This document shows, piece by piece, positions 49,961-58,445 of a stretch of 64,000 bases of DNA. Origin of the DNA: Chlorobiaceae bacterium. GTDB taxonomy: Bacteria; Bacteroidota; Chlorobiia; Chlorobiales; Chlorobiaceae. The notes under the pieces were generated by a model. It did no database searches. It was not told where the DNA came from and saw only the letters and a list, made by a program, of their open reading frames with translations. Where the stretch lies: positions 186,001 to 250,000 of the forward strand of contig JAAXWQ010000002.1 in the NCBI GenBank assembly GCA_013335115.1, in the 5' to 3' direction. A program made the position numbers and the translations under genes. Every line of letters starts with the position of its first letter. The first letter of the stretch is position 1.

Positions 49961-50290
49961 CAGCGGGACAAGCAAGTTCACACACTCACGGCGCCACAAA
50001 ACAAGTTGTCAACAATGTGGATAACTTGTTGACAAAAAAATCCCCAACCCCCCAAACCCCACGCGGACCACATGCAACCACTTGTCAACGCATGTGGACA
50101 ACTTCTCGCACCAAAAACCTTAAACGATAATATTTCAACAAGATAGCTTGTTGAAAACCCTACTGTCCACTGCGATTCGGTTCTGCCGCGATTTGCTCTG
50201 CTGCGTTGTTATTTATCCACCGAAAACACTAACTTGTGAACAGCAAATGTTGATGAACCTTCATCCTAACGCCAATCACCCTCGTATCCC
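49960..50290. other. oriC: Candidate replication origin between rpmH and dnaA
   Basis: A gene-free stretch where transcription diverges. It holds one perfect DnaA box on the minus strand (TTATCCACA, 50016-50024) and two with one mismatch (TTGTCCACA, minus, 50093-50101; TTATCCACC, plus, 50213-50221). The first two lie in imperfect 22-23-base direct repeats (50006-50027 and 50082-50104). A 10-bp inverted repeat (TTTCAACAAG-ATAG-CTTGTTGAAA, 50133-50156) lies in an AT-rich patch that could be an unwinding site. Confidence 0.7.
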
Positions 50291-51769
50291 ATGCCCGACC
50301 TGACCCAGCAGGAGACCCTGACAAACCTGCAATCCAGCACCATCCACACGACCCTGTTCGCTGAAAAGGTCTGGAACGCATGCCTCGGGCTTATCCAGGA
50401 GAGCATCAATCCACAGGCGTTCAAGACATGGTTCCTCCCCATCAGGCCTATAAGCTTTTCGGGAAGCGAACTGACCATCGAGGTCCCGAGCCAGTTTTTC
50501 TATGAATGGATCGAGGAGAACTATTCCGTTCACGTCAAGCAGGCCCTCAAGCAGGTTATCGGGCTGGACGCACGCCTTATCTACTCCATCGTGGTCGACA
50601 AGTCCCAGCTCCAGCCGGTCACCATTGAACTTCCCCACCAGAATACATCCCCTGCCGGGAATGTCGACCAGGTATCCCTGCCTGATACCGGTAACGCCGT
50701 GGCAAGGGCCAGGTTCAACAGCAACCGTGCGCGGTTCGAAACCAACCTGAACCCGAAATACACCTTTTCGACCCTGATCAGGGGCGATTGCAATTCATTG
50801 GCCTTTGCCGCGGCGAAGTCCATCGCGCAAAGCCCTGGCCAGAACGCCTTCAATCCGCTGGTCATTTACGGCGGTGTGGGACTCGGAAAAACCCACATGA
50901 TGCAGGCAATCGGCAATGCGGTCCGTGAAAACCGGATCAGTGATGCCGTTCTTTACGTGTCGAGCGAAAAATTCGCCATCGATTTCGTGAATGCCATCCA
51001 GAACGGAAACATCCAGGAGTTTTCATCGTTCTACCGGAACGTCGACGTGCTGATCATCGACGACATCCAGTTCTTTGCCGGCAAGGAAAAGACCCAGGAG
51101 GAAATTTTCCACATCTTCAATACCCTCCACCAGTCCAACAAGCAGATCATCCTGTCGGCAGACCGGCCAATCAAGGAGATCAAGGGGATCGAGGACCGCC
51201 TCATCTCACGCTTCAACTGGGGCCTGTCGACCGACATCCAGCCGCCGGACTACGAAACGAGGAAAGCCATCATCCAAAGCAAGCTCCACCAGAGCGGAGT
51301 CATGCTCGACGGGGCGGTCATCGAGTTCATTGCGACCAACGTTACGCATAACGTCAGGGAGCTGGAGGGGTGCATCGTGAAATTGCTTGCGGCCCACTCG
51401 CTCGACAACCAGGAGATCGACCTCCAGTTCACCAAGTCGACGCTGAAGGACATCATCAGGTACAATACCAAACAGCTCACGCTTGAAACGATCGAAAAGG
51501 CCGTCTGCGCATATTTCTCGATCACCTCGAACGACCTGAAGGGGAAATCGAAGAAAAAAGAGATCGCGGTCGGAAGGCAGATCGCCATGTACCTCGGAAA
51601 AATCATGACCGATTCGTCGCTGAAAACCATCGGCCTCCATTTCGGGGGAAGGGATCATTCGACGGTCATCCATGCCCTGAACACGGTCGATAAAAAAATC
51701 GAATCATCGAGCGACGAAAGGAAAAAAATCGAAGAGCTGAAAAAACGCATCGAAATCATGTCGATGTAG
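50291..51769 (+). CDS. dnaA: Chromosomal replication initiator DnaA
   Basis: A 492-residue initiator. Domain I (about 25-95) is helical, followed by a linker; domain III is AAA+ with Walker A GGVGLGKT (194-201) and Walker [11 protein letters not shown] near residue 255; domain IV ends in the DnaA-box-binding [15 protein letters not shown]. It binds the boxes on both sides of its own gene. It is first in a dnaA-dnaN-recF-dciA series, all on the plus strand. Confidence 0.98.
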
Positions 51770-52053
51770 GTGCGTGGTGTGCATAACATGTTGATTCGGT
51801 GTTGGGGGTATCTTGATTACCTGTATGTTGTCAACATCGGGTCCGCAACCGAAAAAACGGTCCACAATCACCCAACAAGGACACCTGAGGGATGTACACA
51901 ACTTATCCACAGGATCCAACGAGGCAGATAAACACCTAAAATCATATAAAATAAACACATAGAAGGGGACTTGCTGAAGTCGTCAAGAATTCCACAGCGA
52001 CAACAACAGCAACAAATATTTATCTATTAATTAATTATAAATGTTGTAAGAAG
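51770..52053. other. dnaA-dnaN intergenic region with DnaA box and AT-rich tract
   Basis: 284 bases without a gene. It contains a perfect DnaA box TTATCCACA on the plus strand (51903-51911) and two AT-rich runs (about 51935-51960 and 52010-52045). Such a region may be the second half of a bipartite origin or a site regulating dnaN. Confidence 0.55.
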
Positions 52054-53178
52054 ATGAAATTCACCACGACCATTAAAAAGCTTCAGGATGCGGTAAGCAA
52101 AGTGATCCTTGCTGTTCCGTCAAAATCCCTCGATGCCCGCTTCGACAATGTCCATCTTCAGCTGGAAGAAGGATCACTGACCTTATTCGCCAGCGACGGG
52201 GAATTGTCGATTACGGCGAAATGCGAAGTATCCTCTTCCGATCGTGGATCTGCAGCCATCAAGGCCAGGACACTCCAGGATTTCCTGCGTAGCATGTACG
52301 ATACCAGCGTGACCTTCGATATCGAACGTCAGGCCGGAGGGGAGCAGGGGATGGTGCATATCTCGACCGACAAGGGAAAGTACCGGATGCCCTGCATGTT
52401 CGGTGACAAACCGGAAAGCCACAAGCGGAATTTCGACCTTTCCATCGGCCTGCAACCTTCGGAGCTTCAGGACGTTATCCACAAGACCCTTTTTGCTTGC
52501 AGTGTCGACGGAATGCGCCCTGCCATGATGGGTGTGCTGTTCGAATTCGAGGCTGGCGGACTGGTTGCGGTCGCCACCGATGGACATCGCCTGGTAAAAT
52601 GCCGCAAAAAAACTACCACCGACATTCCGGAGAAGCAGAAGATCGTCGTTCCATCCCGTGCACTTTCCATCATCCAGAGGCTGCTCCAGAACGATGAGGT
52701 GAACATGGCTATCGATACTGAACGGAGGAATATCAGGTTCCAGTCCGAAAACGTGGAGCTCGAATCTGCACTCATCGTCGAACCGTATCCGAATTATGAA
52801 GCAGTGATTCCGGTGGAGAACGAAAAGAAAGTAGTTGTGGAGCGAGTGCAGATCCATGATTCGGTCAAGCGGGTTGGGAAGTTTTCCAGCATTGGCGATA
52901 TCAAGATCGTGATCGAAGGATCGACGATGAAAATCATGGCCGAAAATTCCAGCGAAGGAGAATCCGCACAGGAAGAGCTGCCATGCGTGTTCACCGGCGA
53001 AGATATCACCATCGGCTTCAATTCACGATTTGTGGAGGCGGCACTTGCCCATATTGAAAACGACGAAGTCACCGTCGAGCTCAGCAGCCCCACCACAGCC
53101 GTCATCTTCAAGCCTGGCAAGGATGAGCATCGTGACGACCTCATCATCCTCGTCATGCCGGTGAGGATAAACAACTGA
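52054..53178 (+). CDS. dnaN: DNA polymerase III sliding clamp, beta subunit
   Basis: A 374-residue ring-forming clamp of three similar domains that holds DNA polymerase on its template. ATDGHRLV near residue 175 and the C-terminal VMPVRIN, the site that takes clamp-binding peptides, are typical. Normal length. It follows dnaA after 284 bases and precedes recF by 16 bases. Confidence 0.97.
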   Translation: MKFTTTIKKLQDAVSKVILAVPSKSLDARFDNVHLQLEEGSLTLFASDGELSITAKCEVSSSDRGSAAIKARTLQDFLRSMYDTSVTFDIERQAGGEQGMVHISTDKGKYRMPCMFGDKPESHKRNFDLSIGLQPSELQDVIHKTLFACSVDGMRPAMMGVLFEFEAGGLVAVATDGHRLVKCRKKTTTDIPEKQKIVVPSRALSIIQRLLQNDEVNMAIDTERRNIRFQSENVELESALIVEPYPNYEAVIPVENEKKVVVERVQIHDSVKRVGKFSSIGDIKIVIEGSTMKIMAENSSEGESAQEELPCVFTGEDITIGFNSRFVEAALAHIENDEVTVELSSPTTAVIFKPGKDEHRDDLIILVMPVRINN

Positions 53179-53194: not shown

Positions 53195-54301
53195 TTGAAA
53201 CTCGAAGTAATCAGCATAGCCAATTTCAGGAACCATGTCCTGTTGGAATTCGAGCCGGGCCCCTCGATCACCGTTATCCATGGACGCAACGGAACCGGCA
53301 AAACCAGTATTCTTGAAGCTGTCCACTACTGTGCGTTGACCCGTGGATTTCCCGGAAGCACCGACCGGGATTGCCTTTCGTTTGGAACCGATCATTTCAT
53401 GATCAGGGGATCGTTCCTCAGCGACAGGAGCTTGAATACCGGTGTCAGGATCGTCTGGTCAGAGGAAAATGAGAAACAGGTGTTCGTCAACGAACAGGAA
53501 ATCGATTCATTTTCCCGACATGTCGGAACCATACCCTGCGTTACGTTCACCCCGGGAGAACTCTCCATTGTCAGCGGGGCACCATCAGAAAGAAGGCGTT
53601 TTATCGATAGTGCCATCTGTCAGTATGACAAGAAATACCTCGACGATATGATGCAGTATCGAAGGGTTTTACAACAAAGAAACGCCCTTCTTTCTACTGG
53701 TATCGAATCCCCATCAAATATGGCTGCATTCGATATCTGGACAGATCAGATTGCCTTGCTTGCGGCAAAGATTGTCGTTTCAAGACTTGAATTCATCAGG
53801 CAGTTCAGTGTTTCATTCAGGCAGATATATTCATGGTTTCCCGGAAACCTTGAGCCTGAAATGATGTATCAAAGTTCATATGGAAAGTTAGCGACCGGAC
53901 AGGTTTATGAAGAACTAAAATACTATTTTATAAATCGTTATAAGAACCTTAAAGCACAGGAGATACAGAGGAGGCAGACCCTTGCAGGGCCCCATCGCGA
54001 TGACCTTATTCTGTTGACCGATGGCCATGAAACCAGGAAATTCGCATCACAAGGCGAGCAAAGGAGCTACCTTATCGCCATGAAAATGGCTCTCAGGAGT
54101 TACCTTTACGAAACGACTGGTGAACATCCGATTATACTTTTCGACGATCTTTTTAGTGAACTCGATGCTGTTGTAGAAGAGAGGATAATAGATTCTTTGT
54201 TATCGTTTGGACAGGTATTAATTACTTCTACTTCAAAGATAAAAAGATCAGGTATCGAACATTACTCCATGCAAAATATGCATGAAAACAAGGTGGATTG
54301 A
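53195..54301 (+). CDS. recF: DNA replication and repair protein RecF
   Basis: A 368-residue SMC-like ATPase that helps load RecA at gaps. Walker A is HGRNGTGKTSILEA near residue 30, the signature LAGPHRDDL near 266, and Walker B IILFDDLFSELD near 315. The start is TTG at 53195 with AGAGG upstream; no earlier ATG exists in this frame after the dnaN stop. dciA follows 3 bases after its stop. Confidence 0.95.
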   Translation: MKLEVISIANFRNHVLLEFEPGPSITVIHGRNGTGKTSILEAVHYCALTRGFPGSTDRDCLSFGTDHFMIRGSFLSDRSLNTGVRIVWSEENEKQVFVNEQEIDSFSRHVGTIPCVTFTPGELSIVSGAPSERRRFIDSAICQYDKKYLDDMMQYRRVLQQRNALLSTGIESPSNMAAFDIWTDQIALLAAKIVVSRLEFIRQFSVSFRQIYSWFPGNLEPEMMYQSSYGKLATGQVYEELKYYFINRYKNLKAQEIQRRQTLAGPHRDDLILLTDGHETRKFASQGEQRSYLIAMKMALRSYLYETTGEHPIILFDDLFSELDAVVEERIIDSLLSFGQVLITSTSKIKRSGIEHYSMQNMHENKVD

Positions 54302-54304
54302 CGT

Positions 54305-54598
54305 ATGGCACGCGGTAAAAAACCACGGGTGCTGACCTCGGTCATGGGGGAAATGTATCGTACCATAGGTATGACGGAAGCTTATGACCGGTACCGTACG
54401 CTCCAGATATGGGCTACCGTTGTCGGGGAAACCATCGCAAGGGTGACTTCTGTGGAACAGTTGAAAGAGGGGGATCTGTACGTGAGGGTGAAAAACCCTT
54501 CATGGAGGATGGAGCTCAATTTCAGGAAAAAGGAGATTGCCGAACGCCTGAACAAGGCGATTGGCAATGAGATGGTAAAGACGATCATTTTTAGATAA
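54305..54598 (+). CDS. dciA: DUF721 / DciA-like replicative helicase operator
   Basis: A 97-residue small basic protein of the DUF721 family. QIWATVVGETIARVT, the Gly-x-x-Ile/Leu and the NPSWRMELNFRKKEI segment are the family core. DciA proteins load or stimulate DnaB in bacteria lacking DnaC/DnaI. Placed directly after recF at the end of a replication operon, it fits that role. It is about half the length of some relatives, being only the core KH-like domain. Confidence 0.85.
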   Translation: MARGKKPRVLTSVMGEMYRTIGMTEAYDRYRTLQIWATVVGETIARVTSVEQLKEGDLYVRVKNPSWRMELNFRKKEIAERLNKAIGNEMVKTIIFR

Positions 54599-56048: not shown

Positions 56049-58445
56049 TCAAAATGGAGTTTCATCTCCGTACAGGGACTCTGTTTCCAAATGTCGAATC
56101 TCCTTGACGACTTCAATACCCGACGGGGAAAATGCGAACAGGGTATCAGTTGAAAAAATGGTACTGAAATCCTGCGGTTTGAAAAAAGGCAGGAACTTCT
56201 GCGCGAACTCATCGAGTCGTTTCAGATAAAAATGTGTGTTTTCGTCAGGCTCCTTCTTTTTCCACTCTTCGGCAAGACGCCCCTTGTCAAGCGCAGATGC
56301 CGTGCTTCCCGTGCCGGAGATATAGTAAGTCATCCGGTCCCCCTTGTTGACCTGGATACCCTGCTTTACGGCAATTTCATAGGTTATCGACTTTGATCTC
56401 TTCCCTGATCGTGTATCGGTGAGGTATTGTTCGAGGGAGCTTTTCATCGATTCCGTCCTGGAGAAATCGGTGATGTGCATGCGGTGCTGCATGATGTTGT
56501 TCCTGTACTTCACGTAGAGGTCGTGGAGCCCCTGTATGTCCTCGTGCAGCAACAGGATGAATCCTTCGCGTACGAAATCACGGCCGAATTTCTCCCCGCT
56601 CCTGCTGATCAGCGACGACCCTTTCAACTTGAGCTTGTCATGGTAGTCCAAGAGGACGTAATTCTTCTTCATGTAGGAGATCATCTTCCTGAACCGCCCA
56701 TCGAATCCGATCGTGATGCCGGAAGGCATCTTGGCGGATACTTCCTCGACCAGGGCTCGTTCTTGGTCCTCGGTGACGAGGTGAGGGGGCGGGACCAGGA
56801 AAATACCATCCGTATCGACTTCGATGACTTTTGACCCTTTGGATTCGAACTCCCTGATCATCATTTTCGCGATCCCCTGCCCTGTTGTCGTGACCCGATC
56901 GGCCTCTTCGAAATCATTGAAGATTCCGCTGCTGAAGCCCAGGTAACCGTACATGGCATTGATGATGATCTTGAACGAGTTCTGCATGGCGTCATAATTG
57001 TCCGCCAGAGATCTGTTGCCCAAAGAATTTTCATCGGCAGAACGTTTTTTTGCTGCAAAGCGCAGATCCTTGAGGTCCTTCAGGATTGCCGGGAATGTCT
57101 TCAGTGTATCGGTTTTCGGGCAAATACCGCACGAGAGCATGATGGAAGGATACAGGGATTCTACGTCGGCATAAACGATAGGGCCGAGAATACCCTTGAT
57201 GAATACCTCAGTGAACCCTCCGACATGCTGCTGGCCTATCGAGGGTCGCGGTATGGATACTTTCCGCTTGATGTATTCCCTGACCATCAGTGCCTCGATC
57301 TTTGCGGCAGGACCAAGTCGAGATGCCTGGGCATAGGTATAGGGAAGCATTCGCGCGAGATTGAAATTGCTTCCTGAAAGCAGCGCCGCAAGTTCCCGGG
57401 TTTCCCTTACGTCGTCGAGGGCATAGGCCAGGAGCACTTCGGGGTTGTTGTCCCAGGTGTCGGCGAGATCCTTGTAGTCGACATAGGTACGGTTGGGTGA
57501 TGCAAATCCGAAGAATTTCGCCGCAGCCTTGAGCCCGTAGCTCGGAAGGGAGCGCTTTGAGGTGTCGTAGCTTTGAACGAGGAAGTAGGTGTCAATCACG
57601 TGCCTGCCGGGAATGTCGACGTACTGGTAATCGATGCTCCTTTCTGCGAAGCGTATGGTTGCCGGATAGGACCTCGGAACCAGTCCGTCACGGCCGATCC
57701 TGAATGGGACGGCGTTAAGCTCGCATCGACGCTGAAGATACGGAAGGTCGAACCCGAAGATATTATGGCCTTCGATGACGTCGGGATCCTTTTCCCTGAT
57801 GATGGCAACCAGTTCTTCCAGCAACGCCTTCTCCGAACGCCCCCTAGCGTGGATCACGTGTTCCCAGGATCGGTTGTCGCTCAGGGATACGATGATAACC
57901 GGGTCCGTGCCGAACGACTCTTTCTGATTGCCCCGGCCTTGAGGTCGGTAGTATGTTTCTATGTCGAGCTGGAGGCGATGGATATCCTCGAAATACAGCC
58001 CTTTGAACATCGTTTTCCCGCTTTGCAGCAGGTACTGGGTGACGGCATCACCCCTGGTGTAGGTGAGGTGGCTGTTGAAGCCTTGACCGACAGGAGCGTC
58101 GCTTCCGGAGGTGTTGTCCTGATTGCTGCTGTTGATATGGTCGAGCGCAGCCCGATAACTCTTCCAGCTCCTGAAAATGGCGAGATGGTTGAAGTAATTG
58201 TTTCCCGAAAGATTGATCAACCAGTATTTTTCCCGGTCTGCAGGCTCGAATCCATCAAGGAGTTCGTTGTCGGAAAGAAAGAAAAACGGAAAGAATGGTT
58301 CATCGCGATGGGTGATGCGCCCCTCCATCCTTATGAAAAGGCGAATGCGGGTGTCATTGAGTTGGTGGGCTCCGACGATGCCTGTTTCCGGATCCTTTCC
58401 GAACAGGAGTTCATTGAGAAGTGCTGGATCGACGGTGTTATTCAT
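56049..58445 (-). CDS. polB: Family B DNA polymerase (Pol II-like)
   Basis: A 798-residue family B polymerase with intact 3'-5' proofreading and polymerase sites. Exo I is LQLDIETYY (around 170), Exo [14 protein letters not shown], Exo [15 protein letters not shown]. Polymerase motif A is [13 protein letters not shown], motif [18 protein letters not shown] and motif [11 protein letters not shown], where DTDG replaces the usual DTDS. It may act in damage repair or replication restart. A parS site lies 40-55 bases upstream of its start, between it and mnmG. Confidence 0.93.

Follow-up and report, generated by a model that had tools for sequence, protein, structure and literature searches.

A fixed-spacing DnaA-box array upstream of dnaA as the probable first half of a two-part replication origin in Chlorobiaceae

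Introduction

Two near-identical units and an inverted repeat lie between rpmH and dnaA in a green sulfur bacterium, and from the letters of this DNA alone they had been described as a compact replication origin. The question raised by this locus is whether the DNA upstream of dnaA is an origin in itself or one part of a larger origin that also includes the gap between dnaA and dnaN. Here we present a summary of the DnaA boxes on both sides of dnaA, together with their conservation in relatives, the GC skew and the calculated duplex stability. With moderate confidence we regard the locus as the upstream half (oriC1) of a two-part Chlorobiaceae origin flanking dnaA, with the opening half in the dnaA-dnaN gap. 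Bipartite origins are a known type; on our best reading, the lineage-specific geometry and the unusual TTG repeat are the new part.

Locus and gene content

The window, i.e. the whole stretch of 64,000 nucleotides analysed here, corresponds to positions 186001-250000 of contig C1 in a genome of 2.10 Mb in 29 contigs (G000). Its source is a Chlorobaculum-like green sulfur bacterium; the closest matches of its DnaA are from Chlorobiaceae, several Chlorobaculum among them. The gene order is rpmH followed by dnaA-dnaN-recF-dciA, with yidC, yidD and rnpA on the minus strand (Table 1). The gene context of dciA agrees with the one given in the available text of PMC5109545. A PolB-like B-family DNA polymerase is encoded close to the origin (56049-58445), with scores below the NCBIfam cut-offs.

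Table 1. Genes, DnaA boxes and associated elements around dnaA (positions in the window)
Feature	Position	Strand	Remarks
rpmH	start ~49883	-	read by eye; below the size of the ORF list
Site A, relaxed DnaA box TTGTCAACA	50006..50014	+	faces B, 1-bp gap; in 51/71 loci with 2 mismatches or fewer, the offset being exact in each
Site B, DnaA box TTATCCACA	50016..50024	-	B and C jointly without mismatch to TTRTCMACA in 59/71 loci
Site C, DnaA box TTGTCAACA	50027..50035	-	in tandem with B, starts 11 bp apart
Site D, weak box TTGTCAACG	50082..50090	+	faces E, 2-bp gap; at most 1 mismatch in 13/71 loci, at most 2 in 55/71
Site E, DnaA box TTGTCCACA	50093..50101	-	0 mismatches in 37/71 loci, 1 in 34/71
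E-F spacer, AT-rich	50102..50148	.	rival candidate opening site
Site F, weak box TTTTCAACA	50149..50157	-	at most 2 mismatches in 69/71 loci
Site G, box TTATCCACC	50213..50221	+	in highly conserved block near dnaA; at most 2 mismatches in 66/71 loci
Site H, box-like TTGTGAACA	50234..50242	+	at most 2 mismatches in 66/71 loci
Site I, box-like TCATCAACA	50248..50256	-	at most 2 mismatches in 70/71 loci
dnaA, chromosomal replication initiator	50291..51769	+	TIGR00362, 536.9 bits (cut-off 343.9); PF08299 DNA-binding domain
Downstream box TTATGCACA	51778..51786	-	1 mismatch
Downstream box TTGTCAACA	51828..51836	+	
Downstream box TTATCCACA	51903..51911	+	
Conserved box core TCAAGAATTCCACA	51983..51996	+	family form TCMAGAWWTCMACA
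Five trinucleotides CAACAACAGCAACAA	52001..52015	+	4 nt past the box core; TTG-type repeats on the opposite strand
AT-rich segment up to dnaN	52016..52053	.	candidate unwinding element
dnaN, sliding clamp	52054..53178	+	TIGR00663
recF	53195..54301	+	
dciA, ancestral helicase operator gene	54305..54598	+	PF05258; inside the dnaA-dnaN-recF cluster

DnaA boxes upstream of dnaA

The two near-identical units of the sequence-only reading are real: TTGTCAAC-A-ATGTGGATAACTT starts at 50006 and TTGTCAAC-GC-ATGTGGACAACTT starts 76 bp further on at 50082, and each contains a DnaA box on the same strand (TGTGGATAA at 50016-50024 and TGTGGACAA at 50093-50101). The one box per unit that had been described is present and has a partner, as TTGTCAAC(A) also forms a relaxed box, on the opposite strand; in relatives this position alternates with TTATCCACA. 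The relaxed DnaA box consensus used was TTRTCMACA. TTGTCAACA is such a relaxed box, and congeners have TTATCCACA, TTATCAACA or TTGTCCACA at the same place. Read against this consensus, the units are face-to-face pairs of DnaA boxes, A/B with a gap of 1 bp and D/E with a gap of 2 bp, and unit 1 is followed 11 bp on by a third box, C, in tandem with B.

What had been taken as the design, two units, corresponds to sites A+B and D+E of a nine-site array (A-I), of which D is weak. The nine sites are placed from -285 to -43 relative to the dnaA start. That such an arrangement escapes single-box searches is correct for A, C and D, which require the relaxed consensus, and incorrect for B, E and G, which are found by TTATCCACA with one mismatch.

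A single place in the 2.10-Mb genome matches the face-to-face pattern TTRTCMACA-N0-3-TGTKGAYAA, and none matches its backward control. TTRTCMACA by itself has 40 sites in the genome against 19 for its backward control, and seven of the 40 lie in C1 236006-238483, i.e. in a 2.5-kb stretch surrounding dnaA and taking in the start of dnaN. This 2.5-kb cluster, together with an array in 71/71 loci, agrees with the clustering of DnaA boxes expected of an oriC. Of 21 genomes of the genus, 12 contain the exact face-to-face pair pattern, which lies about 285 bp ahead of dnaA in 11 of them and elsewhere in G011. The other nine comprise seven with mismatches at A or without A, G012 without a dnaA match, and G014, whose dnaA is split over contigs and which stands outside the site-A comparison. 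The pair in G011 (C1:567467-567485) is a perfect one and is located 0.57 Mb from dnaA. G012 is rated 99% complete with 9% contamination; the assembly probably lacks its origin region.

Conservation and spacing

The upstream set comprised 71 Chlorobiaceae loci, 19 of the window's genus and 52 others; L069, L082, L097 and L098 were left out for short upstream DNA. In the mismatch search the distance from B to C was preset at 11 bp and that from C to E at 64-67 bp, so that these distances are built in and the mismatch counts are not. The mismatches at B, C and E add up to 0 in 36 loci, 1 in 24, 2 in 8, 3 in 2 and 4 in 1, and to never less than 7 in 1420 mononucleotide shuffles. The remaining sites were sought within 4 bp of the expected place; decoy places gave at most 2 mismatches in ~5%.

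Spacing was measured within 6 bp of the expected place. With F and I sought in this range, the distance from B is 130-134 bp to F (sd 0.64) and 229-233 bp to I (sd 0.73). The distance from rpmH to B, an unbounded measurement in 57 of the 71 loci (the rpmH motif was not found in 14), varies from 124 to 202 bp (sd 26). The spacing of the array is held to about 1 bp, whereas the distance to rpmH shifts by tens of bp. In the 45 loci that share exactly the same spacing, column information amounts to 1.2-1.8 bits at the sites and to 0.48-0.76 bits in most spacers; the G-H gap is conserved too, with 1.63 bits. The distances are retained while most of the spacer sequence varies, the pattern that a helically phased DnaA assembly should give.

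The 213 boxes at B, C and E in these loci differ from TTATCCACA mainly at position 6 (105 changes), position 3 (96) and position 2 (40; outside the genus, the A of TAGTC at E accounts for 32 of these). Nine further changes fall on positions 1, 4 and 5 and none on positions 7-9; as boxes with the fewest mismatches to TTRTCMACA were selected, part of the freedom at positions 3 and 6 is a matter of choice, unlike the constancy of 7-9.

Two boxes 64-66 bp apart, a distance like that of C and E, were also found in five (L100, L101, L103-L105) of eight Chloroherpetonaceae-type loci (L100-L107).

No other non-coding stretch upstream of dnaA is as conserved as the block with sites G to I (50206-50260). 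Site H is followed by three NTN units at spacer 4 in most loci, and by at least three units in 58/71. The block could be a dnaA promoter or a second opening signal.

The 10-bp inverted repeat that had been counted among the origin elements is perfect in the window, with a 4-nt loop (50133-50142 / 50147-50156), and its right arm overlaps site F; as an origin element it is not conserved. The arms are complementary at 10/10 positions only in the window and at no more than 7/10 in the other 70 loci, and the repeat looks like a coincidence of one genome. A functional hairpin at 50133-50156 was rejected on this loss of complementarity in the other 70 loci. A terminator scan also selects the repeat, on the minus strand, with 5 terminator-like sites against 3.4 ± 2.0 in shuffles.

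The dnaA-dnaN gap

The element in the gap consists, in this order, of a box core, 4 nt, usually five CAA/TTG trinucleotides and AT-rich DNA. Box core and trinucleotide run were found by pattern in 68 of 75 loci, a locus being scored only if a CAA-type hexamer lies within 26 nt of the core; of the seven that failed, six show a box-like stretch and a CAA run by eye and L089 is seen only in part. The run has five units in 52 of the 68 scored loci, and the spacer between core and run is 4 nt in 59, 7 nt in seven and 1 nt in two, i.e. the same register modulo 3. A strict pattern, TCMAGAWWTCMACA-N3-5-CAA, gave 62/86 genomes, which is an overcount and is not used as evidence. By sequence, the TTGTT repeats in the gap element fit the E. 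coli-type ssDUE motif, TT[G/A]T(T), to which DnaA may bind. Their strand polarity presumably matches the E. coli layout.

The minimum of calculated duplex stability is lower in the dnaA-dnaN gap than in the DNA from -500 to 0 of dnaA in 19/19 same-genus loci, and it is located at the dnaN start in 18/19. Boxes are present on both sides of dnaA, as in bipartite origins: at least one downstream box with at most one mismatch in 18/18 loci and the upstream array in 18/18. L043 has one downstream box only.

In a contig labelled Chitinispirillaceae (L069, JAFGIN010000013.1), dnaA shares 80% identity with the Chlorobiaceae query and the same dnaN-side element is present; the contig is probably mis-binned. 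A second origin-like locus in some Chlorobium genomes, in which the strict pattern has two places, was considered and rejected: 10 of the 14 fetched regions share one coding-like sequence and four are dnaN-side elements. The shared sequence of the 10 off-target regions is one we take to be a short-chain dehydrogenase.

Trinucleotide runs at both halves

According to the available text of PMC8287927, unwinding regions follow the rule of a box with at most 2 mismatches, a spacer of 0-16 and then at least three 3'-NAN-5' trinucleotides. The dnaA-dnaN element does not follow it: compared to shuffles, it is depleted of canonical runs (0.81 against 2.04), and the repeat strand reads 3'-GTT-5' instead of 3'-NAN-5', which sets it apart from a canonical DnaA-trio.

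Upstream of dnaA, box F with at least three NTN units fits the letter of the rule in 53/71 loci, the register not being fixed. The same rule fits at B in 38, C in 29, E in 33, I in 32, H in 7 and G in 0 of the 71 loci; since B, C, E and I often fit as well, the published rule is permissive in this DNA. The mean longest canonical run is 4.48 at F against 3.53 ± 0.19 in shuffles, and the mean run also exceeds the shuffles at A (2.45/1.82), E (3.55/2.99), H (3.25/2.15) and I (3.00/2.54), an excess that stems partly from neighbouring boxes, whose TGTKGA reads as NTN. Canonical runs show no excess over shuffles at B, C and G, and are about equal at D. The run after H stands at spacer 4 in 61/71 loci. 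Calculated low-stability segments occur in both halves.

GC skew and relatives with detached dnaN

In a closed congener with dnaA at 1.4-2.9 kb (G003), GC skew is positive in 10/10 sampled 20-kb stretches from 0 to 1.01 Mb and negative in 10/10 from 1.10 to 2.15 Mb; the two stretches beside dnaA are near zero. On the window's own 328-kb contig the cumulative GC minimum lies at 230155 and the keto minimum at 240117, with dnaA between them at 236291. The skew switch expected of an oriC is thus seen at dnaA, with 20/20 stretches of G003 having the expected sign and the minima of the own contig bracketing dnaA. The call of an origin at dnaA-dnaN is supported, and skew cannot separate the upstream and downstream halves, which are 1.8 kb apart. 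The sequence-only reading was right about the place, since the skew it had named as a check fits in all 20 stretches and the boxes keep their places family-wide, incomplete on what is paired, and probably wrong on compactness.

A longer form of the downstream core, TTRTYMAGATWTYMAC, reads as two overlapping boxes. Seven of 12 order-level genomes have a single copy of it, always directly upstream of dnaN, and its backward control never occurs. It is absent from the other five order-level genomes (G027, G028, G030, G033 and G036) and from 4/4 phylum-level genomes. In G028, G033 and G036 dnaN is detached from dnaA as well, with no long core in the genome; G027 and G030 have no long core either, with dnaN next to dnaA.

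In the closed order-level genome G026 the dnaA match begins at 61 bp and dnaN lies at 1,004,788 bp, about 1.0 Mb apart. GC skew is negative in 5/5 stretches from 0.16 to 0.90 Mb, positive in 6/6 from 1.06 to 1.98 Mb and mixed beyond; keto skew is cleaner, being negative to 0.90 Mb, positive from 1.00 to 2.70 Mb and then negative again between 2.86 and 3.22 Mb; the final 4.5 kb are positive. The skew switches at dnaN, and the origin of this genome therefore appears to be located there, about 1 Mb from dnaA. In the 700 bp preceding this dnaN (L177) there are 13 boxes with no more than one mismatch (shuffles: 1.04 on average, 4 at the most). They include a triplet spaced as A-B-C (+10, +11), and a box core stands at -77. 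Ahead of dnaA, 700 bp of DNA hold 7 boxes. G026 suggests that an origin can stay with dnaN while dnaA sits elsewhere, a suggestion on which the genomes without the long core urge caution.

Alternative readings

The array A-I could be the whole origin, with opening in the AT-rich E-F spacer by box F and a regulatory role for the dnaA-dnaN element. Such a single-part origin, which comes closest to the compact one first described, is unlikely in our view; several observations speak for it. In 16/19 same-genus loci the 40 bp of lowest stability between -330 and 0 overlap the E-F spacer, the AT-rich DNA by the inverted repeat adjoins box F, B, C, E and F all have the same orientation, and 5/12 order-level genomes are without the long dnaN-side core. 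Box F satisfies the box-plus-three-NTN rule in the 53 loci given above with runs exceeding the shuffles, but these runs have no fixed register (the commonest spacers are 6, 7, 4 and 11) and are frequent after several boxes. The dnaA-dnaN DNA is moreover less stable in 19/19 loci, the gap holding both the weakest duplex and a tightly constrained box-plus-repeat element, and where dnaA and dnaN are far apart, in G026, the skew switch goes with the dnaN-side element. Both points make compactness doubtful, and the dnaA-dnaN element is the likelier opening site as judged from these features.

It is distinctly improbable that the array is mainly an autoregulatory operator of dnaA and a DnaA titration site, with replication starting from the dnaA-dnaN half only. 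An operator would be in keeping with the strong conservation of the block that holds G, H and I, 35-78 bp ahead of the dnaA start, and with the skew switch at dnaN, away from dnaA, in G026; a fixed spacing over 230 bp, with pairs more than 190 bp from the start codon, seems beyond what an operator needs. A sigma-70 scan from rpmH to dnaA found no promoter-like site on the dnaA strand, a model that green sulfur promoters may not fit. Compatible with either layout, the CAA run might have no opening role and be an unstructured leader or promoter part of dnaN. CAA repeats are known as translation-friendly leaders, and the run ends 38 bp before dnaN on the coding strand; against this reading, which we consider unlikely too, its register to the box core is constant (a spacer of 4 nt, or of 7 or 1 in the other nine loci).

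Proposed mechanism

For the two-part origin, the sites, their spacing and conservation, the skew and the calculated duplex stability are what was observed; that DnaA binds and loops the DNA, where the helix opens and what the TTG run does are inferred. DnaA would nucleate on the phased nine-site array A-I between rpmH and dnaA, with a strong tandem pair C/B, the face-to-face pairs A/B and D/E and the weaker sites F-I toward dnaA. DnaA on the array would bridge to the oriC2 boxes in the dnaA-dnaN gap, looping out dnaA. From the box core it would move onto one single strand of the repeat of about five TTG units, and the AT-rich segment would melt, allowing the helicase to be loaded; the gene for DciA belongs to the same cluster.

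More tentatively, green sulfur origins may be opened by a non-canonical trinucleotide array, 3'-GTT-5' about five times and 4 nt from the box core, with the nine-box array as a bridging platform; we see this as a possibility worth stating rather than as a probable one. With the same reserve, T would replace the middle adenine of the Bacillus DnaA-trios in the 3'-GTT-5' reading, and the E. coli TTGT motif would be merged with the Bacillus 3-nt register. If true, this would be a natural trio-like repeat without the middle adenine, on which the reading of single-stranded origin DNA by DnaA could be tested directly. The family would also provide a natural alignment of DnaA arrays, with spacing constrained and most spacer sequence free, on which models of orisome geometry could be tested.

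Comparison with known origins

Among the matches listed from the open-access literature no paper is titled on a Chlorobiaceae origin; subscription journals and DoriC entries lie outside this search. The known origins are compared here as described in the available parts of the cited papers. The bipartite origin of B. subtilis, with its BUS, has boxes on both sides of dnaA as here, and its dnaN-side half likewise consists of boxes, a spacer of ~4-5 nt, trinucleotide repeats and AT-rich DNA (PMC8287927, PMC10316083). In contrast to B. subtilis, the repeat here is 3'-GTT-5', without the conserved middle A of 3'-GAT-5' required by the published rule, and the upstream array has its own fixed geometry.

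C. difficile, H. pylori and other Epsilonproteobacteria share with the present locus an oriC1 upstream and an oriC2 between dnaA and dnaN. In these bipartite origins unwinding takes place in oriC2, opening of oriC2 required both halves in vitro in C. difficile, and bridging of the halves by DnaA is reported for B. subtilis and H. pylori (PMC7561715, PMC5043019). The box consensus here, TTRTCMACA, differs from that of Clostridioides difficile and the Epsilonproteobacteria. The box pattern of the latter is reported as not conserved (PMC7561715, PMC5043019), whereas the spacing here is fixed family-wide.

The E. coli oriC DUE (TTGT/TTATT, ssDUE recruitment) is similar in that TTGTT opposite the box fits its motif, and in the opened E. 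coli origin the TTGT/TTATT-type motif is bound by DnaA (PMC10316083). The repeats here differ from E. coli in their strict 3-nt register beside a box and in belonging to a dnaA-linked two-part locus. In the oriC of Thermotoga maritima (eTrio) an inverted box 2 works in the array and three TAG repeats are bound single-stranded (PMC10316083); the box and repeat sequences here are different. For Melioribacter roseus an origin has been predicted in the 303-bp dnaA-dnaN gap (PMC3534657), a prediction only, with no upstream half mentioned in the available text.

The DnaA protein of the window is ordinary. Beside the single-strand-binding motif it reads DFVNAI, compared to EFINSI in 8btg and DLVDSM in 2z4r, which we take to be the DnaA proteins of B. 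subtilis and T. maritima, respectively. The valine next to the motif, as in T. maritima DnaA, may be a lead; Val176 of the T. maritima protein is named in the available text of PMC10316083.
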